From Effrenium voratum (Eukaryota > Sar > Dinophyceae > Suessiales > Symbiodiniaceae): a stretch of DNA of 64,000 nucleotides. The stretch covers positions 1 through 64,000 of the forward strand of contig CAUJNA010000186.1 of assembly GCA_963377175.1 (NCBI GenBank), read 5' to 3'. Shown here piece by piece: positions 39,068 through 60,467 of this stretch; the first letter of the stretch is position 1, and each line of letters begins with the position of its first letter. Under the pieces are notes generated by a model that saw nothing but the letters and a program-made list of their open reading frames with translations, ran no database searches and was not told the DNA's origin. Both the position numbers and the translations under genes were made by a program.

Positions 39068-39562
39068 CAGCGTGACCTCGACGTGACGCAGGCCATGGCC
39101 TTCGAGGCGAGGCGCTGAAGGCCGACGTGGGCCGGCAGGTGCAGGCGCCCCGGCCGCGCGCGCTGGGCAAGTCGGCCGAGGGGCCGAACGACCGGCTGCA
39201 GGCCGACCTCATCGACTTCAGCCAGAACACGCGGGGGAAGACGAAGTACGGCCTGGTGGTGATGGTCTTCACCCGGGAGGCCGCCGTGGAACCTCTGCAG
39301 AACAAGAACGCCGAGACGGTGGGCCAAGCGCGCCGCGCGGGAGCTGACGGGGGTTGTGGTCACGACAGACCTGGGCAACGAGTTCGCCACGCTGGACGAG
39401 GACCGCAACGCCATTGCCGTGGTGGACTGGGGCATCCAGACGCTGAAGAAGGACCTGGCCACGAGGGTGGCGCGCAAGGGCGGGCAGTGGAGCCGAGCGG
39501 GCGGCCGGGGCCTACAACGCGCGGCCCCACGAGACGGTGCACGGCGCGCCCAGAACGTGGAG
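39068..39562 (+). pseudogene. rve integrase, copy B, 5' part
   Basis: Plus-strand integrase homologous to copy C from the equivalent of 46,292, with several deletions (for example the codons between GRQ and LEPL are partly shifted). It retains VVTTDLGNEFATLDE and RNAIAVVDWGIQTLKKDLA. It is cut at GTGGAG by the insertion of copy C and resumes at 58,883. Confidence 0.8.
39557..39562. repeat. 6 bp target duplication, left of copy C
   Basis: GTGGAG, repeated at 58,883-58,888. In the uninterrupted integrase of copy C the site reads once (about 46,849: GACGTGGAGAAGCAG), which proves the duplication. Six bases is characteristic of Polinton/Maverick integration. Confidence 0.85.
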
Positions 39563-39563
39563 A

Positions 39564-40640
39564 CTCTCTCTGTAGAGGGCGTTTTCCAAATGGTTTATAT
39601 TCTACCTGAGAGGCTTCTAGCACTCGTCCGTCCAGCATTTGACCTCGTCCTGCGAAGGATTCGAAGTCTAAAACGCTGCGTGCAGGCGTGTGGCTGCAAA
39701 ATAGAGACGCCTAGATATGCTTGCAATTTGGCTCCAGGTTGCATTTCAAGCGAGCCAACCTTTGCAGGGCTAAGAAAAACAAAAAAAAAGAAAACAAGGG
39801 GTCCCAAAAAAGGGGTCCCCGAAAAAAAGGGAAAAGGGGTTTCCTTTGGCAAAGCTTGACATCGCTTGAAATGCAACCTGGAGCCAAATTGCAGCGCATA
39901 TCTAGGTCTCTATTTTGCAGCCACACGCCTGCACGCAGCGTTTTAGACTTCGAATCCTTCGCAGGACGAGGTCAAATGCTGGACGGACGAGTGCTAGAAG
40001 CCTCTCAGGTAGAATATAAACCATTTGGAAAACGCCCTCTACAGAGAGAGGTTCAACACAAGTGCCACTTGTGTTCACGCCACTTGCCTGGCACAGAAGC
40101 CTCCTGGCCGCGCCACTTGCCTGGCACAGAAGCCTCCTGGCCGCGCCACTTGCCTGGCACAGAAGCCTCCTGGCCGCGCCTGCCCGGCATTGAAGCCGCG
40201 CCAAGCCGCTGAACCCCCACTCTCCCCCGCGTCCTTGCTATATGTGCTATATGTGCTATATCTTACACGCCAAGCCGCTGAACCCACTCTCCCCCGCGTC
40301 CTTGCTATATGTGCTATATGTGCTATATCTTACACGCCAAGCCGCTGAACCCCCCCTCTCCCCCGCGTCCTTGCTATATGTGCTATATGTGCTATATCTT
40401 ACACGCCAAGCCGCTGAACCCCCACTCTCCCCCGCGTCCTTGCTATATGTGCTATATGTGCTATATACTCTGTACGCGCGAAATCTGTACTATATATGCT
40501 ATATAGGCCATATAGCACATATAGTACATATAGCATGTAATCCGGGGAGAGTGGATGTTCAGTGGCTTGCCTTGTGAGACCCATATAGCACATATAGCAC
40601 ATATAGCAAGGACCCGGGGGGGAGTGGATGTTCAGCGGGT
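39564..40640. repeat. left terminal inverted repeat of copy C
   Basis: Foldback 39,564-40,050, then GGTTCAACACAAGTGCCACT, then CACTTGCCTGGCACAGAAGC repeats and GCTATATGT array 4 (40,204-40,640). It matches 57,745-58,882 in reverse complement, apart from unit number differences. Confidence 0.85.
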
Positions 40641-40644
40641 TGCC

Positions 40645-42025
40645 GCGCCCTGCGTAGCCTCCCTGCCGCGCCTGCCTGCGTAGACGCCACAACGGGTCCT
40701 TAGTACTGGCTCGCCCAACTGGCTCGCCCAAGTGCGGGTTCAGCGGCAAGTCCGAGTGCGCAAGACGTTCGTGTCGTACTGGAAGTATACCAAAGTGAAA
40801 GTTAATATCTTTCAATTCAAATTCCCTGGTGCAGGTTGGCCCCTTAGTACTGGCTCGCCCAACTGGCTCGCCCAACTGGCTCGCCCAACTGGCTCGCCCA
40901 ACCTCGTTTGATGGCTCGCCCAAGTACGGGTTGGTCAGCGGCAAGTCCGCGAGTGCACAAGACATTCGTGTCGTCATTGAAGAGTTCGATACAGTGGAGG
41001 ACAAAATCCTCCACTGCCAATTCCCGGCCGCACCTCCCTGGTGCGGGCCTGCCGTCAATCCTGTCGCGGGCACAGGATTGCCACACTCAATCCTGGCGTG
41101 GGCGCAGGATTGCCCCACTCAATCCTGGCGTGGGCACAGGATTGTCCCTTCAATCCTGCTGTGGCAACATCTCCTGCCCGGCATCGGAGCCCGGCCGCGC
41201 CTGCCCGGCATAGAAGCCTCCTGCCGAGCCCACGCCAAGGTCGAGATTCTTCCCAGCAAAAAAAATGTCGAGGTTGTCGGCTTAGACGACAACCGTGAAA
41301 AAATTTTCCAGTTGTCCTGTGGGGGGACAACTGCCTTCGGCGAACCTGCCCGGCAGAGCCGCGCCAGCCCGCCGACATGGAGGGCACGCAGCTGATGTCT
41401 CGCACCAACTGCGAAGCAGTGTCCGGTTTTGCCGGCCACTGGCTCCATCGTGCGCAGGTCTCGCTTTTGACCGGCGAAATCGGTCAAATCAAAAATTGAG
41501 TCACATCCGAAAAACAGAGAGAGGTAGAGGTCTTGGTGAACTTTGCTGAAGGAGCTCAAACGGTGAGCTCCTTCAAATTCGCAGGTCGGGTGTTGCGCTG
41601 GCGTTCGCCTGAGAAATTGCAGATTCTCACTGTTTGAGAAACTGCTGAAAAGTCTTCGAAGTGTACGAAGAAAACATACACATGCCCCGTTACAAACGCC
41701 AACGTGCGGGCCTGGTGCGGGCCCTGTGACACGTGCGGAAACTTGTGCCGAAGAGGGGTTGGTGTGTTTGACACACCAATCGGTGACGCCTGTGATGTGT
41801 GTCAAAAACACACCAACCTCCGAATCACGAGGAAACTTCTCCGAGCGGCCGGAACGCCACTCCAAGACCGAAGCCGCGGAGCCAAGGTCCACGGACTGTG
41901 ACACGTGCGGAAACTTGTGCCGAAGAGGGGGTGGTATGTCAAACATACCACCAAGCGGCGACGCCTGTGAGGGCGCGCTGCGACAGTACAACACCCCTGC
42001 GTTATAGACCTACTCCTAAGAAAAC
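40645..42025. repeat. fiber leader region, copy C
   Basis: No gene. It holds TGGCTCGCCCAAC repeats (40,710-40,925), CAATCCTG/CAGGATTG repeats (41,050-41,170) mirrored at 57,465-57,555, a perfect GAAGGAGCTC/GAGCTCCTTC hairpin (41,548-41,574), and three-base-loop hairpins at 41,759-41,779 and 41,930-41,952. Confidence 0.65.
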
Positions 42026-45000
42026 ATGTTTGAAGGACCTGTCACCGGCAACATCCCGGAGGTCCTGGACAACGGAGAGGTAACTGACGGCACGCACGTC
42101 ACAGCAGGACAGCTGGCCCTCGCTCTGACGCCCTACGCTCAAGTAACGGACCTGGCGGTGAACACGGCAGCCGCCGGCAACAACGCCGCTGCCATCCAGT
42201 CCCTGGACGACAGAGTCACCGCAGAGCTGGCCTCAAAGCTGGACAGCAGCGCGCTGGCTCCGGCGATTGCGCCCCTAGCAACGGCTGCGGCCCTGGCCAC
42301 CACGGACGGTCAGGTGGCCGCGCACGGAAGCAGCATCGCAGCGCTGCAGAGCTCGCTGACCACGGGCCTCTCCAACAAGGCAGACCAGTCGGCCTTCGAC
42401 GTGCTGGAGGGCGTGGTGGCGACGAAGAGCACCCCGGACAGCGTGGACCTGAAGCTGTCCAACTACAGCACCACGGCGGCCATGACCGGTTCCATCGCCT
42501 CGGCCAACAACGCCACGCTGGCCACGGTGGCCGCCAACTACGGTCTCAAGACGGTGGTGGACCAGCACTCCCTAGACATAGCGGCGAGGATCACGCCGCT
42601 GGAGGTGGATACGAAGGTGGCCAACGCTCTCCGGGGCGTCGTCACCGCCGCGGCGCTGGCCTCCGAGCTCGCGAGCAGAGACGCCACCATCTCGGGGCTG
42701 CAGGCCTCCAAGGCGGACGCCAGCGCACTGACCGCGTACGCCCTGCTCTCGGCCGTGGACACTTCCTCCGAGGTGGACTCAAAGATCTCTGGACGCCGCC
42801 CTCGCCGGCAAGGCGGACGCCAGCGCGCTGGCCTCCCTGCTCTCCACGGTGGACGGACTGGACACGCCACTGGAGGTAGACACCAAGATAGCACATGCGC
42901 TGCTGGGCCTCGCCACCGAGGCCTTCGTCGCAGCGCAGCTTGCTAGCCGGGACGCCAGCAACACGGCGCTCCAGGCCTCCAAGGCCGACGCGGCGCTGCT
43001 GGCCTCGTACGCCACGAACGCCGCGCTCTCCGCCAGCGAGACCGCGCTCCAGAGCGCCCTTGACGCAATCCTCGCGGAGCTCGCCGCCCTGCAGCTTCCC
43101 GGAGGCGGAGTTGTTAACGCGCCGGCCTGGGCGGGCTTCACAACTTGGGAGCTCGTTCAGGGAAGCAACGTCGTTCGCAACCTGCACTTCGTGGCTCCTC
43201 TCTCTGCTGCGCGGGCCAACGGCGACGACACGCTGAGCATCACGGCAGACTGCTACTCCACGGCGGGCACTGACGCTGCTATAACAGCAGCCTTGCTGGC
43301 CTACTACACCTCGGCGCAGGTAGACGCGCTGTTGGGAGACTACCGCACAGGGGCAGCGCAGGACGCGGAGACTACCAGCGCCATCACAGCCGCGCTGCTG
43401 GCCTACTACACCTCGGCGCAGGTAGACGCGCTGTTGGGAGACTACCGCACGGCAAGCGCGCAGGACACGCAGACGCAGGCCGCCATCGCTGGCGCGCTGC
43501 TGGCCTACCGGACGGGCCCGGACCAGGACGTCTTCACAACCAACCAAATCACCTCGGCGCTGGTGGCGTACCGCTCAGCCGCAGACCAGGACACGGCGAC
43601 GGCCTCGAGCATCGCCGCCGCGCTGCTCAGCTACTACACCATCGCACAAGTAGATGGCCTCCTCGCCGGCAAGCTCGGAGTCACGGAGGCGGCCTCTGCG
43701 CTGCAGATAGCAGTGCGCTTTCCGGACGACGGAGGGGCCGACGAGGTTGTGGCCGCCATAGGAGAGCAGATCCTGGGCCCCACGGACGTCTCGCTGTCAA
43801 ACTGGACGGTCCGCCCCAGCAGCGGCTGCAGCGTGGTCCTGGCCACGCACACCGCGGGAGTGAGCGTGGACGGCTACACCCTGACCCTGGCGGCGAACCC
43901 GTGGAACATTGTGCGCACCTACAACTTGACGCCCGGCAGAGAGCTGCTCTTCGCCTGCCGCTCCCGGCTCGGCACGGCCTCCAACTTCGTGGTGTACATG
44001 TCCGAGGCAGACAACGTCTACGACCCATTGTACGGCAGCTTCGCGGGCGACCAGGGCGCCTGGAGCACGGCCAAGATGTACTTCACAGTGCCGCCCAACG
44101 GAGTTGCGAAGCTGCACTTCGGGCGCACTTCCAGGCGCCGGGCCTGCCCAACCAAACGGCAGGAACGGTGGACGTCTACGGCCTCCAGATCCTGGACGCA
44201 ACCCTGGAGACCGGCAACACGGAGGAGGAGGACACGGCGGCCTCGGCCTGCTGCTGAAGCACGAGTTCCTCGACGGAGGGGCGGACGACGTCACGCTGGC
44301 AACCCTGGGCGAGGTGCTGCTGGAACCCACGCTCACCACGCTAGGAAATTTTCTGGTGCGCTCCAACAGCCAGAGCTCCGTGGCCTCGGCCAGCTTCACG
44401 GTGGGAGGCTTCCAGCTGGAGGGCTACGCCATGACCCTGAGCGCCTTCGCCTGGAACATCGTGCGCACCTACACGCTGACGCCGGGGAGACGCTACTCCA
44501 TCGGCTGCCGGTACCGGCTGGGCACGGCCTCCAACTTGGTGATGTACGTCAGCGCGGCCGACAACGACTACGTGGGCGTCACCGGCACCTTCCTCGGCAC
44601 GCCCTCGCAGGGCGTCTGAAGCACGGCGCGCCTGGACTTCTCGGTGCCGCCGGGCGGAATCGCGAAGCTGCACTTCGGAGCCTTCGGCGGCTCCATCCCC
44701 GGGCTGGTGCAGCAGTCGGCGGGCACGCTGGACCTGTACAGCATGCAGATCAGGGCCAGCTGCCTTCGAGGGAGAGTCTGTCTCAGTAACGGACCTGCTG
44801 GCGGACTCGCTGGCCCTCACGGGCTCGGCCACGCTGGACGGGCTCACCGCGCAGGGCAACGTGGGCTGCGACCAGCTGCTGTGCAACGACGTGAACTGCA
44901 CCGACGTGTTCACCACGGGCGTGGACGCCTCGGGCGCAGTCTCCTGCGCAGCGCTCACAGCCACCGGCACCGTCGCCGGAGCCACGCTGTCGTCCACAGG

Positions 45001-46030
45001 CGCCGTGTCGGGCAGCTCGCTGAGCATCACTGGCGCGGCCAGCGTGGGCCTCTTGAGCTCGGCCACCGGAATCACGGGCAGCACACTCACCATCAACAAC
45101 ACGGCCAACGCCGGGAACTTCACCACGGTGGGCGACGTGTCCACGGGCACGCTGACGGCCTCGGGCGCAGCAACCGCGGCGAGCTTCGCAGCCACCGGGG
45201 CGCTCACGGGCGCCACGCTGACGATCACCGGGGCGGCGTCCACGGGCCCGCTGCACTGCGAGAGCCTGGACTGCACCTTCACGGCCACGAGCGGCGGAGT
45301 GTCGACGGGCAGCGTGGTGTGCGGCAACGTGACGAGCTCGGGCACGGTCTCCGCGCCGCAGCTCTTCGCCTCCAACACGCTCACCGTGACCAACACCTCA
45401 GACTTCTCGGACGATCTCTTCTTGACGAAGAACTGGGCGGGCTGGAGCAAGCTGCAAGTGTCCAACACCAGCGCGGCCCCCGACAGCGGCCCGGAGCTGC
45501 GGCTGCTGGGCAACCAGAGCGCACGGGTCTTCCTGGAGCGGGACGGCGGGGCGCACCAGTGCGAGCTCATCATGCTCAACGACGAGGCGCTGGTGCAGAC
45601 CAAGAGCCTCTCCACGCAGCTGTCCCTGACCACGAACCAGAGGAACCCCGGCTGCCTCGTGATCGCGGGCAACACGGGCAACGTGGTCTGCAACACGAGC
45701 TTCACGGACTTGTCCGACAGCCGGGTGAAGACGGAGATGGCGGAGGCCGACGTGGCGGAGCTCCAACAGCTCTTCGACTCCGTGGAGGCCAAGCAGTACA
45801 AGCGCCCGGACATGAACGGCGACCTGAGGCTGGGCTTCGCCTCCAACGACTTCTCAGGAGCGAAGTGGAAGAACCTGACGGGCACCGCCCGGTGGAGCGA
45901 CGGCACCGAGATGATCACCCTCGACTACTCTCACCTCACCAGCGTGCTCTGGGGGGTGTGCAAGGGCTTCCAGGCCCGGCTGGACGAGGTGGAAGCCTGG
46001 CAGGCACAGCGGGGGCCGAAGAACAAGTAG
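42026..46030 (+). pseudogene. S74 fiber protein, copy C (most complete; frameshifted)
   Basis: ATG at 42026. It begins with an Ala-rich coiled shaft with heptads (ALASKLD, AALQSSLTTGLSNKADQSAF), then about three 22-residue repeats AALLAYYTSAQVDALLGDYR. Two tandem units of about 165 residues follow, each with GGADEVV, NPWNIVRTYNLTPGR and WSTAKMYFTVPPNGVAKLHFG, likely beta-sandwich receptor- or sugar-binding domains. Next comes an Ala/Thr/Gly-rich shaft, then the S74 domain (LSDSRVKTEMAEADVAELQ). The last 390 residues are an unbroken frame from 44861. Breaks occur near 42,790, 44,125, 44,250 and 44,760, and there is a TGA at 44,617. About 1,330 residues if whole. Confidence 0.75.
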
Positions 46031-46216
46031 AAAAAAACGGTCTTCAGGCCTCCCTGCATCCAGGGAACCTTGAATAGCCCCTTTTTGGGGCAAGACGTAG
46101 GTGTGAGCAGGCTTCCGCGTTCTCGCGGAACCTTGCTCAAGCTCCTTTTTGGGGCAACAAGTAGGTGTGTTCAGGCCTCCTGCAGAACCTTGATCAAGCC
46201 CCTTTTTGGGTTATAA

Positions 46217-47205
46217 ATGGAGGCGCTGAGGGACCTGGCCGACGACTTCAACGTGCGGGACCCGCGGAAGCTGTACCGACTCGCACGGCAGCGCGACCTC
46301 GACGTGACGCAGGCCATGGCCTTCGAGGCGCTGAAGGCCGACGGGGGCCGGCAGGTGCAGGCGCCCCGGCCGCGCGCGCTGGGCAAGTCGGCCGCCGAGG
46401 GGCCGAACGACCGGCTGCAGGCCGACCTCATCGACTTCAGCCAGAACACGCGGGGAAGACGAAGTACGGCCTGGTGGTGATGGACGTCTTCACCCGGGAG
46501 GCCGCCGTGGAACCACTGCAGAACAAGAACGCCGAGACGGTGGGCCGCGCCACCAAGCGCGCCGCGCGGGAGCTGACGGGGGACGACGGGAACTTCGTGG
46601 TCACGACGGACCTGGGCAACGAGTTCGCCACGCTGGACCGGGAGCTGCCCGAAAATGCCGTGCACCGGACGAAGCGGCCCGAGGACCGCAACGCCATCGC
46701 CGTGGTGGACCGGGGCATCCAGACGCTGAAGAAGGACCTGGCCACGAGGGTGGCGCGCAAGGGCGGGCAGTGGAGCGACCACTTCGAGCGGGCGGCTTCG
46801 GCCTACAACGCGCGGCCCCACGAGACGGTGCACGGCGCGCCCGAGGACGTGGAGAAGCAGCCGGCCACGGAGTTCAGGGTCCTCCAGGACAACGCCGACA
46901 AGTTCCAGCACAACAAGGACCTCACCGAGCGGCGCGTGAAGGCCGTGCAGGACGCGGGCGCCTTCCGAGCGCCGACGAACGCGGCGAGGAGCTTCAACCC
47001 TCAGTACGGCGACGTGCAGCAGCTGGGGGCCGTGGACTCCATGACCGTCCGCAGCACGGGGGGGCGCGAGACCCTGCTGAAGCTGGCGCTGCCGGCGCCG
47101 CAGGGCAGCGGCAACGCGGCGGGCCGGCTGACGAGACGCAGGCCGGCGGCTGTGAGGCAGCTGGACGACTTCCTGGCGCCTCCGAGGCCCAGGACCCTCG
47201 ACTAG
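46217..47205 (+). CDS. rve-family integrase, copy C (one homopolymer frameshift)
   Basis: ATG at 46217 directly after GGGTTATAA. The N-terminal 80 residues (MEALRDLADDFNVRDPRK) run to SQNTRG, where one G is missing at about 46,455; the rest is one open frame to TAG at 47203. Catalytic core: first Asp in QADLIDFSQN, second in VVTTDLGNEFATL. The third position, in RNAIAVVDRGIQTLKKDLA, is Asp where retroviral-type integrases have Glu. About 329 residues. Upstream lie three AACCTTG...CCCCTTTTTGGGG blocks (46,060-46,210), also present before copy A's integrase. Confidence 0.8.
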
Positions 47206-47439
47206 TTTGAAAATGATTTTTAGGCCCGCTCAGGCCTCCGCATTTCCGCGGAAGCTTGATCGGACCCGTTTTGGCGCAAAAAAAAACTTTGATCACACTC
47301 AAGTTTGCCTGATCGAGCGTGCGCAGGGGGGAAATTCCCGGAGCCTGCTCAGCTCCTTTTTGGGTGCTCGGGAAACCAACGGGTTGGGCGAACCAATCAA
47401 ATGAGGGCTGGCATGGGCAACCCGTGCAAAACCGTGCAA

Positions 47440-47640
47440 AAGCTATTCTTGCAGGCCGTACATACATGTACACCCTAGAAGAATAGCATTTTGTAGCGCA
47501 AGACCGTGCAAAACGGGCTGTTCCTCCAGGCCCTACATAAATGTAGGCCCTAGAAGAATAGCATTTTGTAGCGCCAAACCGTGCAAAACGAGCTATTCCT
47601 CCAGGCCGTATATGAATATACACCCTGTAAGAATAGCATT
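47440..47640. repeat. three GCTATTC...GAATAGC hairpins
   Basis: Palindromes at about 47,440-47,486, 47,518-47,563 and 47,592-47,637, spaced by ATTTTGTAGCGCAAGACCGT-like sequence. Their inner stems differ but stay paired: TACAT/ATGTA, CTACAT/ATGTAG, GTATAT/ATATAC. Confidence 0.75.
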
Positions 47641-47671
47641 TCGTGGCGCAAAACCGCACAAATGTCCCTGG

Positions 47672-48170
47672 GTTTGGCTCCACTCTCCCCCGGCTCCTTG
47701 CTATATGTGCTATATGTGCTATATCTCACAAGGCAAGCCGCTGAACATCCACTCTCCCCGGGTTCGTTGCTATATGTGCTATATGTGCTATATCTCACAA
47801 GACAACCCACTGAACATCCACTCTCCCCCAGCTCCTTGCTATATGTACTATATGCGCTATATGTTCTGTACGCGCGAAATCTGTACTATATGTGCTATAT
47901 AGGGGCCATATAGCACATATAGTACATATAGTAAGGAGCCGGGGGAGAGTGGATGTTCAGTGGCTTGTCTTGTGAGATATAGCACATATAGTACATATAG
48001 CATGGACCCGGGGGAGAGTGGAGGTTCAGTGGGTTGCCTTGTGAGATATAGCACATATAGTACATATAGCAAGGAACCCGGGGGAGAGTGGATGTTCAGT
48101 GGGTTGTCTTGTGAGATATAGCACATATAGTACATATAGCATGGACCCGGGGGAGCGGGTTGGGGGTCAG
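47672..48170. repeat. palindromic GCTATATGT array (array 5)
   Basis: Plus units to about 47,860, inverted units from 47,905 to 48,160, between integrase and helicase as in copy A. 48,171-48,325 is unique spacer with two CAACTGTGCGTCTTTGGGCA repeats. Confidence 0.8.
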
Positions 48171-48325
48171 CGCGCCCAACTGTGCGTCTTTGGGCAAGGG
48201 TGTGCGCCAGAGCGGGGCCAACTGTGCGTCTTTGGGCAAGGCAGCGGCCCGCGTGATCTGTATGCGTTCGCTCGGGCTTCTGCCTGGTCTGTGCCCTTAA
48301 AAGGCAGGCCCGGCTGTGTCGCGAA

Positions 48326-49060: not shown

Positions 49061-49086
49061 GCAAGTTGGGCGAGACAACGACAGCA
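49061..49086 (+). pseudogene. remnant of the 226-residue gene start
   Basis: GCAAGTTGGGCGAGACAACG and the next six bases match the start of the gene at 23092. In copy A this gene and the helicase are divergent with 242 bp between; here a deletion of more than 1 kb has joined their interiors. Confidence 0.7.
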
Positions 49087-49099
49087 CGTCCGGAGCCCC

Positions 49100-49880
49100 A
49101 AGCTACCCCCTCTGGTTTTTGAGGCGCAGACGTGCGCAAAGGACAGAACGTACGTCGGCGTGGACGTGGTGCACTGCAGGCGCAACGGGCTGCCAACGCC
49201 CCCTTTCCCCTGCCCATCCTGTGCCCGGCGGACGGCGTTGAGCCCGTGGACGGCGTGCTGCCGGACCTGGGCTTTGTGGAGGGCTGCTGCGACACGAGGC
49301 AGTCCTGCCTGAACCTGTTGCCGTACGTGGGGCCCGGCTGGTACCCGAAGGTTTCGCTCACCGCGATGCTGGACCTGGGTGTCTGCCGCTGGGACCACAT
49401 CGTGTTGGGCATCTCCGCGCGGAGCCACGTGGACACGGCGACGCTGCGGCGTGCGCTGGAGCGCATGGACGCCGCGTGGCCCGAAGGCGAGGAGCACATG
49501 GCCAAGCTCAGCGTGAACGCGATGATAGGCCTGTGGGCGCGCAGCACGGAGGTGGTCTACAGCGTGCGCAGCAGCAGCAGCGAGCTGGACGGCGCGGGCG
49601 CGGACTTCTCTCAGGCCTTCGCCTACGAGGGGGGCATGTGTGGGACTTTGTCTACGCCAGGAGGCTGCTGAGCAACGGCACCTACCGCCCCATCCACGAC
49701 GCGGTCCTGGGCTTTGAGCACTGCATGGTGGCCAGGTGAAGCGGACTGCCTGCTGACGCAGCGGCTGCCGAAGCGCTTCACGGAGCGGCTGCGGGCGCTG
49801 GAGGCGCTGCGCCACCCGGACGGCACGCCGGTCTACCGCGTGGAAGAGACGAAGCCGTTGCTGGGAGGCAGGGCGCCGCG
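49100..49880 (+). pseudogene. DNA polymerase family B, palm region (frameshifted), fused to Pif1-like helicase
   Basis: The reading YVGVDVVHCRRNGL followed by APFPLPILCPADG fits a motif A region, and AKLSVNAMIGLWARS (about 49,500-49,545) fits motif B (K-x3-N-x3-G). EADCLLTQRLPKRF (about 49,738) sits where motif C is expected. Three frames are needed (49132-49671, 49476-49739, 49714 on). The N-terminal exonuclease and priming parts are missing, apparently removed by the same deletion that cut the helicase. The third frame runs straight on into the Pif1-like ATPase. Confidence 0.55.
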
Positions 49881-50590
49881 CATGGAGGCGGAGCGCCCCA
49901 AACAACGGAGGTGGAACGGAGTGGACGACCCCGTGGGCCACTGCCTGGCGGGCAACTCCCTGCTGCTCACGGGCCTGCCGGGCACCGGGAAGACGCACCT
50001 GGCCCGCACCATTGTGGCGAGGCTGCGAGAGCAGGGCGAGGCGGTGCACCTGGTGTCCAAGACGCACTGCTCCGCGCAGAACCTGGGCCTGGGGGCGCAG
50101 ACGGCCGACCACTGGGTGCGCAGGTACGTGCGCGGGGGCAGCGCGCAAAAGCTGGACTGGCTGGTGGTGGAGGAGATCACGCAGCTGACATGGCGCTCTG
50201 GGCGGACCTGGCGTGCGTGGGGCTGAACGCAGACGTGAAGTTTCTGCTGCTGGAAGACTTCCGGCAGCTGCCGGCCGTGCGGACTCCTGGGCCGGGCGGC
50301 CCATCAGCGCGCCGTTGGAGCACAGCAACTCATCCGCGACCTGGCCGGCGGGCACAGGCACGAGCTCACAGAGAACATGCGCTCCGCCCCGGCATCTTCG
50401 ACTTTGTGAAGTGGCTGCGGGTCGGCGAGGAGGCGTGCCGCACGCTGGAGCAGGCCAAGGCGAGGCTGAAGGAGCTCTACCCCTCCAAGCCCGGGTGGCT
50501 GGACACCACGCTGGTCATCAGCCACAGCAAGCGCTGGCCGTCAACGCAGCGGCGAACCGGGCCCTGGCGCCGGAGGGCTCCAAGCTCTTG
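49880..50590 (+). pseudogene. Pif1-like SF1 helicase domain
   Basis: Continues in frame from the polymerase palm. Walker A LLLTGLPGTGKTHLART, then HLVSKTHCSAQNLG, Walker B LDWLVVEEITQL, then in a shifted frame FLLLEDFRQLPAV (Pif1 motif III type), HRHELTENMRS, and TLVISHSKR with AVNAAANRALAPEG. The order is that of Pif1/RecD-type helicases. At least three indels break it (about 50,190, 50,300-50,390 and 50,530). Its C-terminal domain is absent: after LAPEGSKLLR the sequence passes into the methyltransferase. Confidence 0.7.
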
Positions 50591-50592
50591 AG

Positions 50593-51208
50593 ACACACGT
50601 CAGCCAAGTCGGTGGGCAGGGCCTTCGAGGCGGCGGGCTGGGAGGTCGTCTCCCTGGACATTGTGTCGAAATTTGAGCCCACCATCCTCTGCGACATCCG
50701 GAGCTGGGACTACACGACGTTCCCGCCGGGGCACTTCGACATGGTCTGGGCCAGCCCCGTCTGCACGGAATACGCCGCGCGCTGACGACGCGCCCGCGGC
50801 GCTCCTGGAGACGCGCTGGTGCTCAGCGCCCTTGAGATCATTGACCCCTTGATGTGGATTGTGGAGAACCCGGCCACCGGGCTGCTGAAGACCCGGCCGT
50901 TCATGGAGCGTCTGCCCTGGGTGGACGTGACCTACAAGTACGGAACTCCGTACAGGAAGCAGACGCGGCTGTGGACCAACATGCGCTGGAGGCCGAGCCA
51001 AAGCCTGTGCAGGCCCGGCAGCCGCTGCGGCGTGTGGCAGGACGGTAGGCACCTCCGGGCCGCGCAGCGGGGGGCGGCTGATGGAGGGGCAGTACGAGAG
51101 GGTCAGCCAATCGCGCGAGCTGCTCTACAGCGTCCCTGCTGCGCTGTGTTGGAGACTGCGCGCGCGGCCACGGAGGAGCTTGCGGAGCGGCTGAGCATTC
51201 CGGATTAG
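50593..51208 (+). pseudogene. C5-cytosine DNA methyltransferase-like (frameshifted)
   Basis: SAKSVGRAFEAAGWEVVSLD is a SAM-binding motif I region. ILCDIRSWDYTTFPPGHFD and MVWASPVCTEYA carry the motif IV Cys context (usually PPC, here PVC). The frame then shifts near 50,785 to ALEIIDPLMWIVENPATGLL (ENP motif), DVTYKYGTPYRKQTRLWTN, and reaches a stop at 51,206. This pattern fits Dcm-like enzymes of large DNA viruses and phages. The substitution of Pro by Val before the catalytic Cys is unusual. Function in self-DNA modification is inferred. Confidence 0.65.
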
Positions 51209-51279
51209 ACCGTTCAGGCTTCGTCTTCCGACGAGCCTGGAACAGTCCTTTTTTCCATGTTTTTACTGGTTTTTTGGGC

Positions 51280-51545
51280 GGTGTCACGTTTCACCAAAAA
51301 TGATGAAGCGTGACACCCCCGCCTTTTTTTCTCGTTTTTGGGCGCATTCAAAAGCGGTGTCACTAAACTTCAAAAATGAAGAAACATGACACCCCCGCCT
51401 TTTTTCTCGTTTTTTGGGCGCACTCAAAAGCGGTGCCACTAATCTTCAAAAATGAAGAAACATGGCACCCCCGCCTTTTTTCTCGTTTTTTGGGCGCACT
51501 CAAAAGCGGTGTTACTAAACGCCAAAAATGGCGCAGAGCGACACC
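51280..51545. terminator. four tandem 76 bp hairpin units between convergent genes
   Basis: Hairpins at 51,280-51,317, 51,356-51,393, 51,432-51,469 and 51,508-51,545, each with loop-side AAAAAT and a T-rich tract (GCCTTTTTTCTCG) between units. Stems change in step: GGTGTCA/TGACACC versus GGTGCCA/TGGCACC, and CTTC/GAAG versus CGCC/GGCG. They lie between the methyltransferase (+) and MCP (-) stops, a natural place for bidirectional termination or 3' end formation. Confidence 0.6.
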
Positions 51546-51550
51546 GGGCC

Positions 51551-52804
51551 TTAGTCAAGCACAGAGACGCCCGTGCCGGAGAGCGTCACCAGCTGGTAGG
51601 CCACCAAATGAATGAACAGGTCCGTCATCGTGCCGTCCAGGCCCTTGAAGGTGAACCGGGCACGGTCGCCCGAGCGGGTGCTGACGCCACTGAGGGGCAT
51701 CTTGGGCACGCGCTCGGTGGGAAAGCCGGCAATGAAGCTGTGGCGCAGGTAGCCCACGCGGCCGATGTCGATGTTGCGCACCGTGTCGTCGTAGGTGCCC
51801 GCGAGGACGGAGAGGAAGTGGAAGTGCTCCGAGTCTCCCTTCATGGGGTTGTGAGGGTACTGCAGGCTGCCCAGCTGCATCTGCGACTCCAGGAGGCTGT
51901 CCTCCTGCCTCGCCGCGCCGATGGGGGCCACGTCCTGCCCCGGGTTGGCCAGCAAGTGGATCTTGGAGCCCGCGTCGTTGTCCCAGAAGGTCACGAACGC
52001 GCCCATGAGTTTCGTGAAGGCGCGCGCCACGGTGACGTTGTGCTCGCCACGCCGTTCGGGACGCTGGACTGCTGCGTGTGCACCGTGGGGTAGCTGAACA
52101 CCAGGGACCTTCCTGAGAGGAGCACGCGGTTGAAGGACTCCACCAGCGCAGAGTCCAGGACGACCTGGGAGGCCAGAACTCGGACGTTCTGGATCTCGAA
52201 GTCGGTGCTCAGCGTGGCCCCCGCCGGGTGCGCCCCGGCGTTCTCGGACCACAGCGCAGTGGTGGCGTCCGCAAACTCAATTTCTATCACCAGGTTCAGC
52301 TGCGGCGGCAGCATCTCCCCGCAGCGCAGGATGCCCACCATGGTGGGGCGCAGCAGCACGTCCGCGTAGCCGCCCTGGTGCACCGCGCGGGCGATGCGCG
52401 GGTCGTTCACTTCGTCGAAACCTCCATGGCCTTGTTGCGGTTGTACTCTCTGCCCTTCAGCAGGTCGTGCACGGCCACGGTGCGGCCGTAGTAGTTGATG
52501 TCGTCGCAGCGCTGGCCGTTGGCGAAGACCTGGACGCGCTGGACAAAGCAGGCGGGGTTGGGCGTGGCCGGGGCCAGCGGGTTGGTGCCGTCCGTGTTCC
52601 TGACGCGGAAGGCGATCTTGATGGACTCGGGGTCGATGAAGGACGTGCCGCTGGTGAGCGGGATGCGGCAGACCCTAGAGGTTGTGGGGGAGAAGGAACT
52701 CAGCGAGCTGGGGAAGTACTGCACGTCATGCCGCGCCGTCACGTAGCTGGTGTTGCCAGGCTCTGCATCAGCTCATCCTGGGCTCCGGCGGTGACTACCT
52801 CCAT
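51551..52804 (-). CDS. major capsid protein, copy C (frameshifted)
   Basis: The start is the ATG at 52,804 (MEVVTAGAQDELMQSL), preceded by TATATAAAC. Frame shifts near 52,757, 52,408 and 52,040 link four segments into about 415 residues ending TGVSVLD at 51,551. RHDVQYFPSSLSSF and IKIAFRVRNTDGT align with the AT-rich MCP, as does ARAFTKLMGAFVTFWD. VKIHLL-type and GRVGYLRHSFIAGF segments follow. The protein is shorter than the AT-rich MCP (about 527), so surface loops probably differ. Confidence 0.7.
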
Positions 52805-52805
52805 G

Positions 52806-52817
52806 CTTGTTTATATA
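52806..52817 (-). promoter_or_regulatory. TATA-like box before MCP
   Basis: Minus strand TATATAAACAAG directly precedes the MCP ATG. TATAAAAGCAAG precedes the ATG at 54,513 in the same way and TTATAA precedes the integrase ATG, so a shared late-type element is possible. Confidence 0.4.
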
Positions 52818-52847
52818 CACGCATTTTGACTCGTACGGCGAAGGAAA

Positions 52848-52966
52848 ACTATTCTTCTAGGCCCTACATCAATGTAGGCCCTGGAAGAATAGCGTTTTGT
52901 GGCGCAAACCGTGCAAAAAAGCTATTAGTCCAGGGTGTATATTCATATACGGCCTGGACTGATAGC
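52848..52966. repeat. two GCTATTC...GAATAGC hairpins
   Basis: At about 52,848-52,893 (CCTACATCAATGTAGG centre) and 52,920-52,966 (GTATATTCATATAC centre), upstream of the MCP. Confidence 0.75.
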
Positions 52967-53028
52967 ATTTGTTCAGCGCAAAGCCGTGCAAAAAAACTCT
53001 CCCCCAGGAGGAGGGTTTTTATTTTTTT

Positions 53029-54254
53029 TTAAGCAGCCTCAATGTCTCGCGCCAGCTGGTCAAAGCTGGGCGGAGGCAGGCTCCGGCGTGACTGCCCGGA
53101 ACTGGAGCTCGCCCGTGAGCTCGGCTGGGACTGGGGCAGAGCCACGGGGTTCAGGCCCCAGGAGAAGGGGCGCGGCGTGTTGTTGGACTGCGCCTGCACA
53201 CGGAAGCCGGACTGCGAGGAGGCGCGGCTGCTTGCGGGGCTGCCCGAAGTGCTGCTGCCTGAGCGCAGCGTGAAGTGCTGAGGCTGAGTGGCGTCGTTCA
53301 TGCCGTTGGCGGACCGGACGTCCTGCACGGCCGCGTCCTCGCTGCCCTGCTGGGGCCGGAAGAGCGTGTTCTCCAGCACCCAGCCCGTGCCGCGGGCCAG
53401 GCCGTAGGCTGCGCCGCCTGCAATGCCAACGGCCAGCCCCGCCGTCGCCGCCGCGCCAACTCCCGCCACGCCAGCCAACGTTCCAGCAACCTCGCCCGCG
53501 GTGGGCGCGAGGGCTGCCGCTCCTTCCGCCAGGCCCCCCAGGTACCCAAAGGCTCCGCCCACGCCCTCGGCGGCAACGGCAACCTCACCCTCCTCCGCAG
53601 CCACGGCCGCCGTCTCCTCTATTGCCTCCGCGCCACGCTCCACCTCCTGCGCGCGCTGCCCCGCCTCGTCCAGGAGGCGCTCCACGTCACTGGGCCGGCC
53701 TATGATCTGCGGAGGCGGCTGCGCCGGGCCCGGACGGGGCAGCACGTTCAGACGCACGTACTCAGCTGCGTCCTGGGGCAGCTGAGAGCGGAAGGCCTGC
53801 GCGCTGCGAGCCCCGCGGCCCCTGCGCCTACGAGGTCCGTTGCCGCCTGAGCGCCGTCTGCAGTGCCGCGCAGACGGTCCATGATGGAGGGCGGCCCCTG
53901 CCCGTTGCTGGCCAGCGCGCCGGCCTCGGGGTCTCCCGCCAGGTCGTCCTCAACAAAGCGGGTTCCGCCGTATCCTTGGTACCTCCGCGCAAGGCGCACG
54001 TCCTCGTCCGTGGCCTCTGCGGGAGTGCGGAAGCCTTCCTCGGGAATTGCCTGCAGGGGCGTGTGCTGCAGGGGCCGGGTGTTGGGGTCCTCGCTGGACT
54101 GCACAAAATCGTCCAGGTAGAAGTGGCTTGTGATGAACGAGGTGGCCTTGCGGTCCGGCTGGTCCAGGGGCAGCGGCTCGATCCGCTCAAGGTAGCCCAC
54201 CACCTGCTCAAAGCGCGGGCGCTGGTTGAAGCCGTGCGCCCGAAGTGCCTTCAT
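53029..54254 (-). CDS. conserved PLV minor virion protein, Ala/Gly-rich membrane segment (frameshifted)
   Basis: ATG at 54,254 (MKALRAHGFNQRPRFEQVVG), overlapping the previous stop. The first frame runs to about 53,820; the pattern continues in the frame ending at 53,029 (SQLPQDAAEYVRLNVLP ...). The N-terminus matches the AT-rich protein at 17193. The second half has a long Gly/Ala-rich hydrophobic region (GTLAGVAGVGAAATAGLAVG), a likely membrane segment, then a Ser/Gln-rich tail ending QLARDIEAA. A membrane-active capsid component is possible; unproven. Confidence 0.6.
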
Positions 54255-54513
54255 TTACTGTTGCGCAACTTCGTCCGCCGCCCGTTCCACGCCCCGGCGC
54301 TCGGCCCGCGCGTAGCGCAGCTGGGGCACCTGGCGGTGCACGGCCTCCGTCAGCCGGCTCACGTCTGCGTTCTCCAAGCCAGTTGTTGAAGGCCCGCGCC
54401 TCCTCCAGTTCTCGGTAGCGCTTCAGCAGCAGCGGCTGCAAGTTGTAGCTGGGGTACGTTTTGCGAAACCACCGGAGCATCCGCGGCTCGTTGCGAGGTT
54501 CAATCGACATCAT
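54255..54513 (-). CDS. small helical basic protein, unrecognised (frameshifted)
   Basis: ATG at 54,513 after TATAAAAGCAAG. MLRWFRKTYPSYNLQPLLLK and a helix follow; a shift near 54,385 leads to NADVSRLTEAVHRQVPQLRY and TAA at 54,255, touching the next gene's ATG. About 88 residues. Function unknown. Confidence 0.5.
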
Positions 54514-54520
54514 CTTGCTT

Positions 54521-54937
54521 TTATACCAGTACGCTAGCGCCTGTGGTCAGCCGGTCATAAGCGGACTGCCTCTCCAGCATGCGCAGGGCGCGCTGCTGCT
54601 CTCTTGTGAGCTGAGGCGGCTCCGGTGCAGCCGGTGCCTCAGCCGGTGCCTCAACCGGAGCCTCGACCGGAGCCTCCGCCGGCGTCTCAACCGGCTTTGG
54701 CTTGCGCTTTGGAGCAGCCGGCTCAGTAGGCACGTCCTGCTTCGGTTTGTTCTTGCTCCCAGGGGGCCTGCCCCGCCGTTTCGGTTCCGGTGCCGGCGCA
54801 GCGTGTGGCGCAGCGTGTGGCGCAGCGTGCGGCGTAGCGTGTGGCGCAGCGTGTGGTGCCTCCGGCGCAGCGTGCGCCTCTTGCGCCTCTTGCGCCTCTT
54901 GCGCCTCCGGCGCCCTGTCGTGTTCGGTCGGCTCCAT
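54521..54937 (-). CDS. Ala/Glu/Pro-rich protein with AT-hook-like motif
   Basis: 138 residues with an ATG at 54,937, nine bases after the penton stop. The N-terminus consists of EAQ and HAAPHAAP repeats, the middle holds PKRRGRPPGSKNKPKQ, an AT-hook core (RGRP), then PVEAPVEAPAEAP repeats and a short helix REQQRALRMLERQ. It has the same position after the penton as 4671-5223 in the AT-rich element. A DNA-condensing virion protein is plausible. Confidence 0.6.
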   Translation of the reverse strand: MEPTEHDRAPEAQEAQEAQEAHAAPEAPHAAPHATPHAAPHAAPHAAPAPEPKRRGRPPGSKNKPKQDVPTEPAAPKRKPKPVETPAEAPVEAPVEAPAEAPAAPEPPQLTREQQRALRMLERQSAYDRLTTGASVLV

Positions 54938-54946
54938 CCTTTTTAA

Positions 54947-55702
54947 TTATACGTGGTCAAGATATAACACGAAGGACAAAGACGACCCGCGAAGCCGGAC
55001 GACGTTGCCGTCCAGGTCGGTCAGGCGGAAGCGCATGTGCCTCAGGGTAACCGGGCCCCTGAGGGCCATGAAGTGCCCGTCGTCTGAGCCCGTCTCCACA
55101 ATGGTACCCACTCCGCTCCTCAGCGTGATCTTGGAGAGGATGTCGTCGCCCAGGTTGCCCAGCACTCTGCTGGCGTTGGCCAGCTGGGCGCAGCGCAGGT
55201 AGACCTCGTTGTGCGCCATCATCTTCACGAACTCAAAGACCTGCTGCCCGCCGGAGACGAAGCTCGGGCCCAGCATGTGGTCCACGCTGAAGGGCTTGGT
55301 GGGAGAGGCGGGCGGCGCGGCAGGGTAGTCCGCGGCATCAGGAAATTGCTGACGCAGCTCCAGGTCGTTCAGGATGAGCCTGTTGCCGTCGTAGGCAACG
55401 CTCAGGCTGTTGGTGGTCTCGCTGTAGGTGGCGGTGGCAAAGTTGGAGCTGATCCAGGCGGCCAACCGTGCGCCCGTGTACGCGCCCTCGGGCAACAACG
55501 CCCAGTTCAGCGTGCCCAGCGCGGCGTCAACCCAGTAGAGGTAGCGGCCCCGGTCCGTGGACAAAAAGCTGTTGGCCAGGCGGATCTTGTAGACGGCGAG
55601 CCGGGCGTCGCTCTGCAGGTGCAGGGACTCCCCCAGGTCCACCTCGAAGTCGCTGTCCGAGCCGGCCACTCTCTTGCGGCTGTCCACGTAGATAGTCGTC
55701 AT
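54947..55702 (-). CDS. penton-like minor capsid protein, copy C
   Basis: An intact ORF of 251 residues with an ATG at 55,702. TTIYVDSRKRVAGSDSDFEV matches the N-terminus of the AT-rich penton gene at 13359. The remainder is beta-rich and ends FVLYLDHV, comparable to FSILFQLDN in the AT-rich copy. It lies between ATPase and the AT-hook gene. One of the few undamaged virion genes of this copy. Confidence 0.65.
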   Translation of the reverse strand: MTTIYVDSRKRVAGSDSDFEVDLGESLHLQSDARLAVYKIRLANSFLSTDRGRYLYWVDAALGTLNWALLPEGAYTGARLAAWISSNFATATYSETTNSLSVAYDGNRLILNDLELRQQFPDAADYPAAPPASPTKPFSVDHMLGPSFVSGGQQVFEFVKMMAHNEVYLRCAQLANASRVLGNLGDDILSKITLRSGVGTIVETGSDDGHFMALRGPVTLRHMRFRLTDLDGNVVRLRGSSLSFVLYLDHV

Positions 55703-55850
55703 CCTTTTCCATAGGAGGCCGCCCGTTCTGCGGACGACGGGCGGCTGGACGGCTGACGGAAGTGCAGCAGGAGATGTTCTCGCATTTAGCGTTGATCAGC
55801 GTGGAGCTGGCGAACAGCTTCTGGCCCAGGAAGCTGAGCGCCGCTCCCAT
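55703..55850 (-). CDS. small Cys-containing protein with candidate myristoylation signal
   Basis: A frame opening at ATG 55,850 reads MGAALSFLGQKLFASSTL, then CENISCC. Gly2 and Ser6 fit N-myristoylation. It reads into the start of the penton gene without its own stop, so the end may be lost to an indel. The counterpart in block 1 could be 19051-19278. Low certainty. Confidence 0.3.
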
Positions 55851-56598
55851 CGGCGTCTTTTTCAAGTGCGAAACGCTCTTCAAAGCGCTTGTAGAACATT
55901 TCATTCCTCGGCTTCAGGTAGTAGACGAACAGGAAGCTGTAGGGTTCCCGCGTCGCCTGCTCGTACAGCCGGTACAGCTGCTCCTTCGGCAGCAGAGCGC
56001 TCAACTCCTCAATGACGGCGTCCAGCTCGTGCTGGTTGCGCAGCCTCCAGCAGCAGAGGAACTGCATGTTCACCCGCACGGCTGCGCTGATTAGTCTCAG
56101 CTTCTGCGAGCTCACCCAGGTACTTATCTGCATATGCCGACCCCTGATGAAGAGAGTGTCCAGGGCGCCGTTTGGTTTATGCAATTGCGGCATGTCCGCA
56201 AGGTCGTCCAGGATAATCAGCACCTGATACAGCTTCTTCATCTCCAACTTCTTGGACGCCTCGGTGATCTTGCGCTGCTGCTGGATGATGCGGCGCAGCG
56301 CCGGCTCGTCCCAGTCCTCCCAGTAGGCTTGCTCTCGTTCGGTGTTCACCCCCAAGTCCTCCTCGATGTACTTCTTGACGGGAATCCAGCCGTCATCGAT
56401 GTCAATGGATGGGCTAAATATGTAGATTCTCTCAAACACGCCGCGATACTGCTCCAGAATCAGGCTGATCAGAGTCACGGTTTTGCCCGATTTGGAAGGT
56501 CCGAGGAAGATGCCCGTGCACGGAACCAGTGGCACCACGGGGTCCGAGGACTGTTTGCTGCTGTATTCCGGCACAGGAAAGAGCTTGATCTTTCCCAT
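55786..56598 (-). CDS. A32-like packaging ATPase, copy C
   Basis: I choose the ATG at 56,598 (MGKIKLFPVPEYSSKQ) because the longer frame overlaps the divergent methyltransferase and its extra N-terminus is not conserved. Walker A FLGPSKSGKTVTL, RIYIFSPS, Walker B LIILDDLADMP, LFIRGRHMQISTWVSSQKLR. Clear homolog of 19572-20336 in block 1, with the same EPYSFLFVYY end region. About 270 residues and intact. Confidence 0.9.
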   Translation of the reverse strand: MGKIKLFPVPEYSSKQSSDPVVPLVPCTGIFLGPSKSGKTVTLISLILEQYRGVFERIYIFSPSIDIDDGWIPVKKYIEEDLGVNTEREQAYWEDWDEPALRRIIQQQRKITEASKKLEMKKLYQVLIILDDLADMPQLHKPNGALDTLFIRGRHMQISTWVSSQKLRLISAAVRVNMQFLCCWRLRNQHELDAVIEELSALLPKEQLYRLYEQATREPYSFLFVYYLKPRNEMFYKRFEERFALEKDADGSGAQLPGPEAVRQLHADQR

Positions 56599-56713
56599 CC
56601 CCTTTGTTTCACTTGCCAAATTTGAAGCCGGGAAGCCGGGCGGCGAGTCCGGGAGTGCGTCTGTGTGTACCGACGCGCTGACGGAGTTTTGCGGGATAAA
56701 CCAAAGGGCTAGT

Positions 56714-57514
56714 ATGCAGCTGAAGTACTTTGGAAGCAAAGCGTGGTTAGCTCCTCACCTGGACCGGCTGCTGGGGGACGTCGCCGTGCTTCACTCTCCC
56801 TTCTTCGGTTCTGGAAAGCTGGAGTACTACCTCGCCGCCCGGCGTCCTGGCTTGGAGGTGCGCGGCGTCGACGCCTTCGAGCCCGTCGCAAACCTGCACC
56901 GCTGCTACTTGAGGCGAGACCCGGTCTTCCTGCGCTCCTTGCTGCGCCTGGTGGGGCGCAGGGTGGACAGGCGCTTCTACTTCGGGCACCTCCTGCCGGG
57001 CGCGCTGAGAGGCCGTGCCGGGCGCCGGGCTGCCTGCGCGTACGTCCTGCTGCGCAACAGCTTCTCGGGGAAGTGGGGCTCCTTCGCACAGCAGCGGTTA
57101 CTGGCACTGAGCAGCGTGCGGCGTCTCCAGCAGCCACCGTGCAACGTGACCGTGCGGCGCCAGGACGCGCTGGCCTACCTGCGGGCACTGCCCTGCCCGG
57201 CGCACCAGTGCATCTACGCAGATCCTCCTTACATTTTCCCCGGCCGCAGCATGAACTACTACGGTACGAGAGGGGGCCACGACCTGGTCTTTCACACGGA
57301 GCTGCGAGACGCACTCTTCGCGAGCGGCCTGCCCTTCATCGTCAGCGTCAACGACGTGCCCGAGGCCAGGGAGCTCTACAGCGGGGCCGACTCCATCACG
57401 AGCCTGCGCTCGGGGAAGAACAGTTCCAAGCCCGAGCTGCTCGTGATGCACCGGGGCATTCCTGCTGTCAGCACAGGATTGGGGAGAGCAATCCTGTTGC
57501 CACAGCAGGATTGA
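56714..57514 (+). CDS. N6-adenine DNA methyltransferase (Dam/D12 class)
   Basis: 266 residues from the ATG at 56,714 (MQLKYFGSKAWLAPHL). Motif I SPFFGSGKLEYYL (F-x-G-x-G type), RNSFSGKWG, and the catalytic CIYADPPYIF (DPPY). The order and length fit class D12 adenine methylases. It is divergent from the packaging ATPase with 115 bases between. Together with the C5 enzyme it would give the element two kinds of DNA modification. The C-terminus enters CAGGATTG repeats, so the last 15 or so residues may not be original. Confidence 0.85.
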   Translation: MQLKYFGSKAWLAPHLDRLLGDVAVLHSPFFGSGKLEYYLAARRPGLEVRGVDAFEPVANLHRCYLRRDPVFLRSLLRLVGRRVDRRFYFGHLLPGALRGRAGRRAACAYVLLRNSFSGKWGSFAQQRLLALSSVRRLQQPPCNVTVRRQDALAYLRALPCPAHQCIYADPPYIFPGRSMNYYGTRGGHDLVFHTELRDALFASGLPFIVSVNDVPEARELYSGADSITSLRSGKNSSKPELLVMHRGIPAVSTGLGRAILLPQQD

Positions 57515-57577
57515 AGGGGCAATCCTGTGGTCACGACAGGATTGACGGCAGGGCGTGTGAGTGGTAAAAAACACTCT

Positions 57578-57609
57578 GGGAGCGATGCTGTGAGGACAGC
57601 ATCGCTCCC
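57578..57609. terminator. perfect 14 bp hairpin after the methyltransferase
   Basis: GGGAGCGATGCTGT-GAGG-ACAGCATCGCTCCC. It lies 64 bases after the stop, following CAATCCTG/CAGGATTG palindromes, and may mark the 3' end. 57,610-57,744 has no gene. Confidence 0.45.
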
Positions 57610-57744
57610 GGACCTTCGGCGCTGGCCCGGTGATGGGTTTTTTGGGCAAAAAGACCGAAGTCGGATTTCCGACTTTGGTGAAACAATCCCGACCTCGGGC
57701 TCGGCAGGGCTCCGATGCCGGGCAGGGTGGCGCAGTGCCAACCC

Positions 57745-58882
57745 GCCGAACCCTCACAGTCCCCCGGACCCTTGCTATATGTGCTATATGTGCTATATCT
57801 CACAAGGCAAGCCACTGAACATCCACTCTCCCCGGGTCCATGCTATATGTGCTATATGTGCTATATCTTACACGCCAAGCCGCTGAACCCCCACTCCCCC
57901 CCGGGTCCTTGCTATATGTGCTATATGTGCTATATCTCACAAGGCAAGCCACTGAACATCCACTCTCCCCCGGGTCCTTGCTATATGTGCTATATGTGCT
58001 ATATGGCCCTATATAGCACATATACTACAGATTTTCGCGCGTACAGAATAATATAGCACATATAGTACATATAGCAAGGAGCTGGGGGAGAGTGGGGGTT
58101 CAGCGGCTTGGCGTGTAAGATATAGCACATATAGCACATATAGCAAGGACGCGGGGGAGAGTGGGGGGTTCAGCGGCTTGGCGTGTAAGATATAGCACAT
58201 ATAGCACATATAGCAAGGACGCGGGGGAGAGTGGGGGTTCAGCGGCTTGGCGCGGCTTCAATGCCGGGCAGGCGCGGCCAGGAGGCTTCTGTGCCAGGCA
58301 GGTGGCGCGGCTTCAATGCCAGGCAAGTGGCGCGGCCAGGAGGCTTCTGTGCCAGGCAAGTGGCGTGAACACAAGTGGCACTTGTGTTGAACCTCTCTCT
58401 GTAGAGGGCGTTTTCCAAATGTATTTTATTCTACCTGAGAGGCTTCTAGCACTCGTCCGTCCAGCATTTGACCTCGTCCTGCGAAGGATTCGAAGTCTAA
58501 AACGCTGCGTGCAGGCGTGTGGCTGCAAAATAGAGACCCCTAGATATGCGCTGCAATTTGGCTCCAGGTTGCATGTCAAGCGATGTCAAGCTTTGCCAAA
58601 GGAAACCCCTTTTCCCTTTTTTTCGGGGACCCCTTTTTTTTGGACCCATTGTTTTCTTTTTTTTGTTTTTCCTTAGCCCTGCAAAGGTTGGCTCGCTTGA
58701 AATGCAACCTGGAGCCAAATTGCAAGCATATCTAGGGGTCTCTATTTTGCAGCCACACGCCTGCGCGCAGCGTTTTAGACTTCGAATCCTTCGCAGGACG
58801 AGGTCAAATGCTGGACGGACGAGTGCTAGAAGCCTCTCAGGTAGAATATAAACCATTTGGAAAACGCCCTCTACAGAGAGAG
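57745..58882. repeat. right terminal inverted repeat of copy C
   Basis: Array 6 (57,745-58,255), then the inverse of the CACTTGCCTGGCACAGAAGC block, then foldback 58,393-58,882. It is the reverse complement of 39,564-40,640 and is followed by GTGGAG. Confidence 0.85.
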
Positions 58883-59066
58883 GTGGAGAAGCAGCCGGCC
58901 ACGGAGTTCAGGTTCTCCAAGACAACGCCGACAAGTTCCAGCACAACAAGGACCTCACCGACCGGCGCGTGACCCTGCTGAAGCTGGCGCTGCCGGCGCG
59001 CAGGGCAGCGGCAACGCGGCGGGCGGCTGACAAGACGGGGCAGGCCGGCGGCGGACCCTCGACTAG
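58883..59066 (+). pseudogene. rve integrase, copy B, 3' part
   Basis: Starts with the duplicated GTGGAG, then AAGCAGCCGGCCACGGAG, as at 46,855 in copy C. It has an internal deletion (from about RRV to LLKLALPA) and ends at the same TAG. 59,067-59,460 continues copy B's downstream spacer, homologous to 47,206-47,450, with one AATAGC-type hairpin at 59,330. Confidence 0.8.

Positions 59067-60426: not shown

Positions 60427-60467
<41 letters not shown>

Follow-up and report, generated by a model that had tools for sequence, protein, structure and literature searches.

Background

Some clusters of cryptophyte Polinton-like viruses (PLVs) have an rve integrase, and these endogenous viruses are, like the element described here, present in high copy number and furnished with terminal inverted repeats (TIRs), capsid genes and target-site duplications (TSDs), according to the available text of Bulzu et al. 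2025 (PMC12220804). The same text gives duplications of about 4-6 bp for integrase products, a single 7-bp rve case, which contains a mismatch, and putative duplications of 7-23 bp in elements with tyrosine recombinases. The mavirus-like elements of Cafeteria are likewise small integrated viruses with TIRs and TSDs; in the available part of PMC8547959 their duplications are mostly of 3-5 bp (range 1-9), and nested insertions are described there for Ngaro retrotransposons and not for kin elements.

Here, a window of 64,000 nucleotides (the whole stretch of DNA that was analysed) was found to contain an element of 19,319 bp (39564-58882) that interrupts a related copy within its integrase pseudogene. 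The element has inverted ends, an exact 7-bp TSD and viral genes, it was inserted into an older relative, and many copies with the same tips exist. It is proposed that this is very probably an endogenous dinoflagellate Polinton-like virus that was inserted by its own integrase with a 7-bp stagger and of which this copy is now defective.

Boundaries and target site

The motif CTCTCTCTGTAGAGGG forms the left tip of the element at 39564, and its complement ends at 58882 (Table 1). The TIRs are about 1.1 kb long, with a left/right identity of 96.3% in the outermost 842 alignment columns and of about 87% farther inward; long TIRs are among the features of PLVs in the broad sense. The flanks outside the element align to the two halves of an integrase gene, and in this interrupted copy GTGGAGA is present at both sides of the element. 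The two uninterrupted integrase copies of the window, at 46279.. (+) and 26329-27213 (-), have the target site once, within GACGTGGAGAAGCAG. An earlier note on this DNA had proposed that a PLV was nested in the integrase gene of a sister copy, and the real ends and the TSD support this, with the tips, inverted repeats and flanks lying where it had placed them. It had also joined the outer flanks into one integrase gene; the halves do align, and the target gene reads as a pseudogene now, having many small deletions in its left half and lacking about 130 bp in its right half.

Table 1. Positions of the features of the element and of its insertion site in the window
Feature	Position	Strand	Basis or remark
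Interrupted sister integrase pseudogene, left half	39058..39563	+	Alignment
Left TSD copy, GTGGAGA	39557..39563	.	Tip, flank and uninterrupted-copy comparison
Left terminal inverted repeat	39564..40645	+	Fold-back tip, then TATATGTGC-type satellite repeats
Left tip, fold-back unit of 488 nt	39564..40051	+	Terminal motif or its complement at either edge
Fibre-like coding region (probable), more than one frame in the window	42020..46074	+	Matches of C2 ORF
rve integrase, one frame change near 46453-46459	46217..47202	+	Relative P0163
Polymerase-helicase gene remnant	49082..50593	+	3 stops, frame changes and, relative to sisters, two internal deletions
Double-jelly-roll major capsid protein (predicted), three frames	51554..52754	-	Relatives and fold match
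Gly/Ala-rich ORF with hydrophobic stretch	53032..53949	-	Coding by third-position bias
Candidate minor capsid (penton) ORF, 282 codons open	54950..55795	-	Position and by eye
A32-type packaging ATPase	55789..56754	-	Pox_A32; full length against relative P0017
ORF with D12 class N6-adenine methyltransferase domain	56426..57511	+	E 1.7e-8
Right terminal inverted repeat	about 57740..58882	-	Self-comparison
Right tip, fold-back unit of 491 nt	58392..58882	-	Self-comparison and motif positions
Right TSD copy, GTGGAGA	58883..58889	.	Tip, flank and uninterrupted-copy comparison
Interrupted sister integrase pseudogene, right half and downstream sequence	58883..59420	+	Alignment

Virion genes, integrase and decay of the copy

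A packaging ATPase, as in PLVs in the broad sense, is present in the element (Pox_A32, E 3.6e-12, 46.7 bits, cut-off 22.8). The double-jelly-roll capsid protein that also belongs to the broad definition is predicted by way of the intact relative P0257, whose AlphaFold model (mean pLDDT 57.8, moderate) had the major capsid protein of PBCV-1 as its best Foldseek match (E 8.6e-14, prob 1.00), with a TM score of about 0.5 to the best solved matches, PBCV-1 and further double-jelly-roll capsid proteins. Among the capsid relatives, one carries the name of Symbiodinium necroappetens. The candidate penton ORF gave no Pfam match; it resembles a minor capsid gene by position and by eye. For the fibre-like region, the second half of a 1372-aa ORF in the sister element C2 matched phage tail-fibre families (best E 1.9e-6), and coding is supported in parts of the region by third-position change bias. 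Such bias was found between copies of the viral frames, which points to past purifying selection on them.

Coding frames were judged by this bias and by database relatives; several of the initial C2 ORFs were partly or wholly in the wrong frame or strand, the capsid homology query P0249 had an out-of-frame tail, and one further homology query was partly out of frame. No family match for an adenovirus-type protease was obtained in the 20 + 10 ORFs scanned, several of which were out of their true frame. No relatives by integrase, ATPase or capsid were found in IMG/VR, in a search that may not have covered records close to this genome, and sequence searches against solved structures gave nothing informative for either the capsid or the integrase.

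The window's own integrase ORF scored 21.6 bits for rve, under the cut-off of 32.6, and the intact relative P0163 (329 aa) scored 33.0 bits against the same cut-off, so that an rve integrase, as in Polintons/Mavericks in the strict sense, is found in this relative. Its D70, D132 and D165 are presumably the catalytic positions, as assigned from the known rve pattern. Glutamate is usual at the third catalytic position of rve integrases; here, among the 54 readable of 120 relatives, this putative position is Asp in 52, Glu in one and Gly in one. The structure model of the integrase was useless (mean pLDDT 30.8) and gives no support to this reading of the catalytic positions.

Compared with C3181, the window copy is without about 2.43 kb at 49063/49083 and about 1.06 kb at 50586/50604, and the DNA at both places is also present in C2, C147 and C2260. 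The corresponding ORF in C2 has an HNH domain and a C-terminal SF1-type helicase domain (AAA_30, E 1.1e-13), between which PolB-like motifs were seen by eye only, with no Pfam polymerase match; against solved structures, the polymerase-helicase ORF gave weak ATPase/helicase matches only. Five other TSD-bearing elements are 24.0-26.4 kb long, the window element being ~3.5 kb short in the polymerase-helicase region. Having lost parts of the polymerase-helicase gene and acquired frameshifts, the window copy is in all likelihood a provirus that is defective but retains good ends, provided that the frameshifts are not errors of assembly. The word "complete", used for the element in the earlier note, holds for its ends and fails for its interior, from which this DNA is missing and in which the capsid and integrase genes are frameshifted.

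Target-site duplication in other copies

The assembly searched comprises 1.156 Gb in 3,699 contigs. Of its 41 matches to the RuBisCO large subunit, 40 form a tandem array on a single contig, and such arrays in the nucleus are indicative of a peridinin dinoflagellate.

In the whole assembly, the 30-nt tip pattern (<=3 mismatches) was found at 2,386 sites (1,189 forward and 1,197 reverse), and its backward control at 0 sites. Nine candidate outer-end pairs were collected, two of which (C236 and C2069) were rejected, their ends belonging to different elements, leaving seven to be counted. An exact 7-bp duplication was present in six of the seven: GTGGAGA in the window, GAAAGAC in C3181 (24.0 kb), ATGCCGG in C88 (24.7 kb), CCCTGCC in C1023 (24.4 kb), GGAGGAA in C1728 (26.0 kb) and GCTATTC in C1645 (26.4 kb), the lengths being taken from coordinates. 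The seventh, the C2 element (2875605-2901267, 25.7 kb), had zero duplication, although it is paired at ends with the same motif. The chance of an exact 7-bp match is 4^-7 = 6e-5 per element, and no common target sequence was seen among the six duplications. The other copies examined stop at the same terminal motif, and the differing ends that could have spoken against the boundaries set by the earlier note were not among them. The C1728 insertion is seemingly also on C236 (a flank in one matches a flank in the other as its reverse complement); these two are not independent, because they are apparently the same insertion.

Fold-back tips and alternative explanations

The arms of the left tip are 96.6% complementary over 204 columns, and its calculated single-strand folding energy is -261 kcal/mol, versus -64 +/- 4 for shuffles. 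The terminal motif occurs four times in the window element because either tip is a fold-back with the motif at both sides. The sequence just inside the fold-back varies in kind among copies (GTTCAACACAAGTG, GTTCGCCTGAG, ATACAGGGAATG and others), and C3181, which has a good duplication, has different inner-flank kinds at its two ends. This variation suggests that the fold-back may be an exchangeable module.

Self-contained fold-back tips with the end motif at both sides, and several kinds of inner flank, as expected of a mobile module, are also what a composite would offer, in which two independent MITE-like fold-back elements flank viral DNA and are mobilised jointly. This origin is unlikely, as the inverted repeats extend far beyond the fold-back unit, in six of the seven pairs it is the entire element that the TSD brackets, and inspection by eye of a small sample revealed no solo unit flanked by 7-bp duplications (the units without a recognised inner flank being L060, L103 and the ambiguous L086-L088). 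More improbable still is an assembly artefact, that is, a misjoin among many near-identical copies: the assembly has thousands of similar ends, the same insertion apparently occurs twice (C1728/C236 and C435/C741) and C809 has a near-palindromic join by the contig end, but a misjoin would not yield a second, exact copy of a site that the uninterrupted gene copies have once, and the same tips and 7-bp rule are found in five other contigs. The least credible reading is a classical Polinton with a 6-bp duplication and a seventh base belonging to the element. GTGGAG is indeed present at both sides and the available texts report 5-6 bp for mavirus, Mavericks and Polintons (PMC8547959) and typically 6 bp for rve integrases (PMC12220804), but the seventh base varies from element to element (A, C, G, C, A and C) while being identical in the two duplication copies of each, and therefore belongs to the target and not to the element. 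The 6-bp duplication "as in Polintons" of the earlier note, characteristic of Polintons/Mavericks in the strict sense, is ruled out by the five other elements with duplications; as in the window element, theirs is of 7 bp, and the remaining one of the seven pairs has none.

Insertion of a PLV by its own integrase is the preferred explanation. Linear or episomal DNA of the element would have been inserted by its rve-type integrase, which may recognise CTCTCTCTGTAGAGGG at the outer tips; the tips would have been joined to target strands staggered by 7 bp, with host gap repair leaving the duplication. The family would once have replicated by its own polymerase-helicase protein.

Insertion in kin and possibly shared ends

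Matches to family interior DNA (E 1e-8) were found in 26 of 41 outer flanks of 393-451 bp. Counted as insertions, 23 of 34 were in or beside kin, versus 3 of 20 random windows from the same contig set (20 fetched of 28 drawn), with Fisher p = 0.0002 for insertions and 0.0004 for flanks; two of the three matching control windows sit on the inner side of a sampled element end. The count leaves out the ambiguous or palindromic L086-L088, L045 (inner side), L105 (tip duplication), L001-L008, the short flanks of L051-L062 and the large loci except the left flank of C3181. Longer flanks were substituted for C88, C1023, C1728 and C1645, and no ends of C236 and C2069 were used. L098 and L099 lie at one site and were counted together; L103, of which the outer side is unclear, was scored as one match on the strength of one matching side out of two. 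Because the ends were picked for high identity, the sample is enriched in young insertions, and the flank matches include short ones of 28-87 bp. The nesting count does not distinguish a preference for kin DNA at insertion from better survival there. Kin-enriched insertion would help to account for nested viral arrays in protist genomes.

The first 22.4 kb of the window are AT-rich (28-39% GC in 2-kb windows outside the retrotransposon) and contain their own A32 ATPase, GIY-YIG and a stretch of capsid-like sequence (130 residues at 28% identity). In C208, a fold-back end with satellite repeats, 91.6% identical to the window's right end, runs into AT-rich DNA, and the ATPase region of C208 has 78% translated identity over 319 codons to the window's AT-rich ATPase. 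C208 appears to join the family end to a different AT-rich Polinton-like virus, with one end seen and a nested-insertion boundary being possible. A tentative and rather doubtful extension is that the ~1-kb fold-back end might be an exchangeable "cap" of at least two PLV lineages (GC ~60-65% and ~30-35%, ATPases ~40% identical), served by a third-Asp integrase with a 7-bp stagger and preferring, or surviving best in, kin DNA. Should different lineages indeed have a common type of end, integrated viruses could remain mobile by exchanging ends.

Comparison with known systems

Searches of an open-licence library brought up no description of a PLV family whose duplications are uniformly of 7 bp or whose tips fold back. 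The exact ends, the fixed stagger and the intact relatives of the integrase make the integration of a dinoflagellate PLV directly testable in vitro.

OmPLV of Oxyrrhis marina, as described in the available text of PMC12721341, is similar in its length of ~25 kb, dinoflagellate host, A32 ATPase, helicase-polymerase fusion and gene decay; it differs in having a tyrosine recombinase and in lacking both rve and a target duplication. Its fusion is helicase-first, whereas here the helicase is C-terminal, as described for Tlr1 in the same text. Polintons/Mavericks share with the element the rve integrase, packaging ATPase, capsid protein and TIRs, and their duplication is of 6 bp in the available parts of PMC12220804 and PMC8547959, versus 7 bp here. 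In comparison with the cryptophyte PLVs, the duplication here is of exactly 7 bp in six of seven elements, and fold-back tips are not mentioned in the available text of PMC12220804. The nested Polinton-like provirus is real; such viruses are known, and the 7-bp rule together with the fold-back tips sets this variant apart.

Virus regions, tips and repeats

A second Polinton-like virus (PLV) region, AT-rich, was found in the window (1-22413), interrupted by a Copia-like retrotransposon (5587-12706) with 154-bp direct repeats identical to each other. It meets GC-rich PLV interior at a sharp boundary (~22414), and positions 22414-32000 consist of partial, rearranged sister copies, having the part similar to 46288-49060 of the main element in the opposite orientation to that similar to 41173-46023. 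Several more fold-back tips are present at 32893-35406, including two mutually facing ends separated by 48 bp alone (33386-33433). At 60377-61420 the window also contains a strongly GC-skewed array of degenerate tandem repeats; in the host genome, ~40 RuBisCO large-subunit matches form a tandem array (C2900:689988-812017).

PolB-like motifs were read by eye in an ORF of the sister copy on contig C2 (C2:2887827-2890298). At locus L028 (C208:165001-175000; locus positions 4417-5500), AT-rich PLV DNA abuts the element's type of fold-back end with its satellite repeats, a junction hinting that different PLV lineages may have ends in common.

Coding features of the AT-rich region, the retrotransposon and the C2 sister copy
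Feature	Position	Strand	Domain or match
AT-rich region, S74 peptidase ORF	2685-3740	-	
AT-rich region, capsid-like stretch	14490-14864	+	
AT-rich region, GIY-YIG	16099-16710	+	
AT-rich region, A32 ATPase	19575-20348	-	
Copia-like ORF	6597-9824		RVT_2, weak
Copia-like ORF	9695-12478		zinc finger, weak
C2 ORF	C2:2887827-2890298 (locus L013, 6827-9298)		HNH; C-terminal SF1-type helicase
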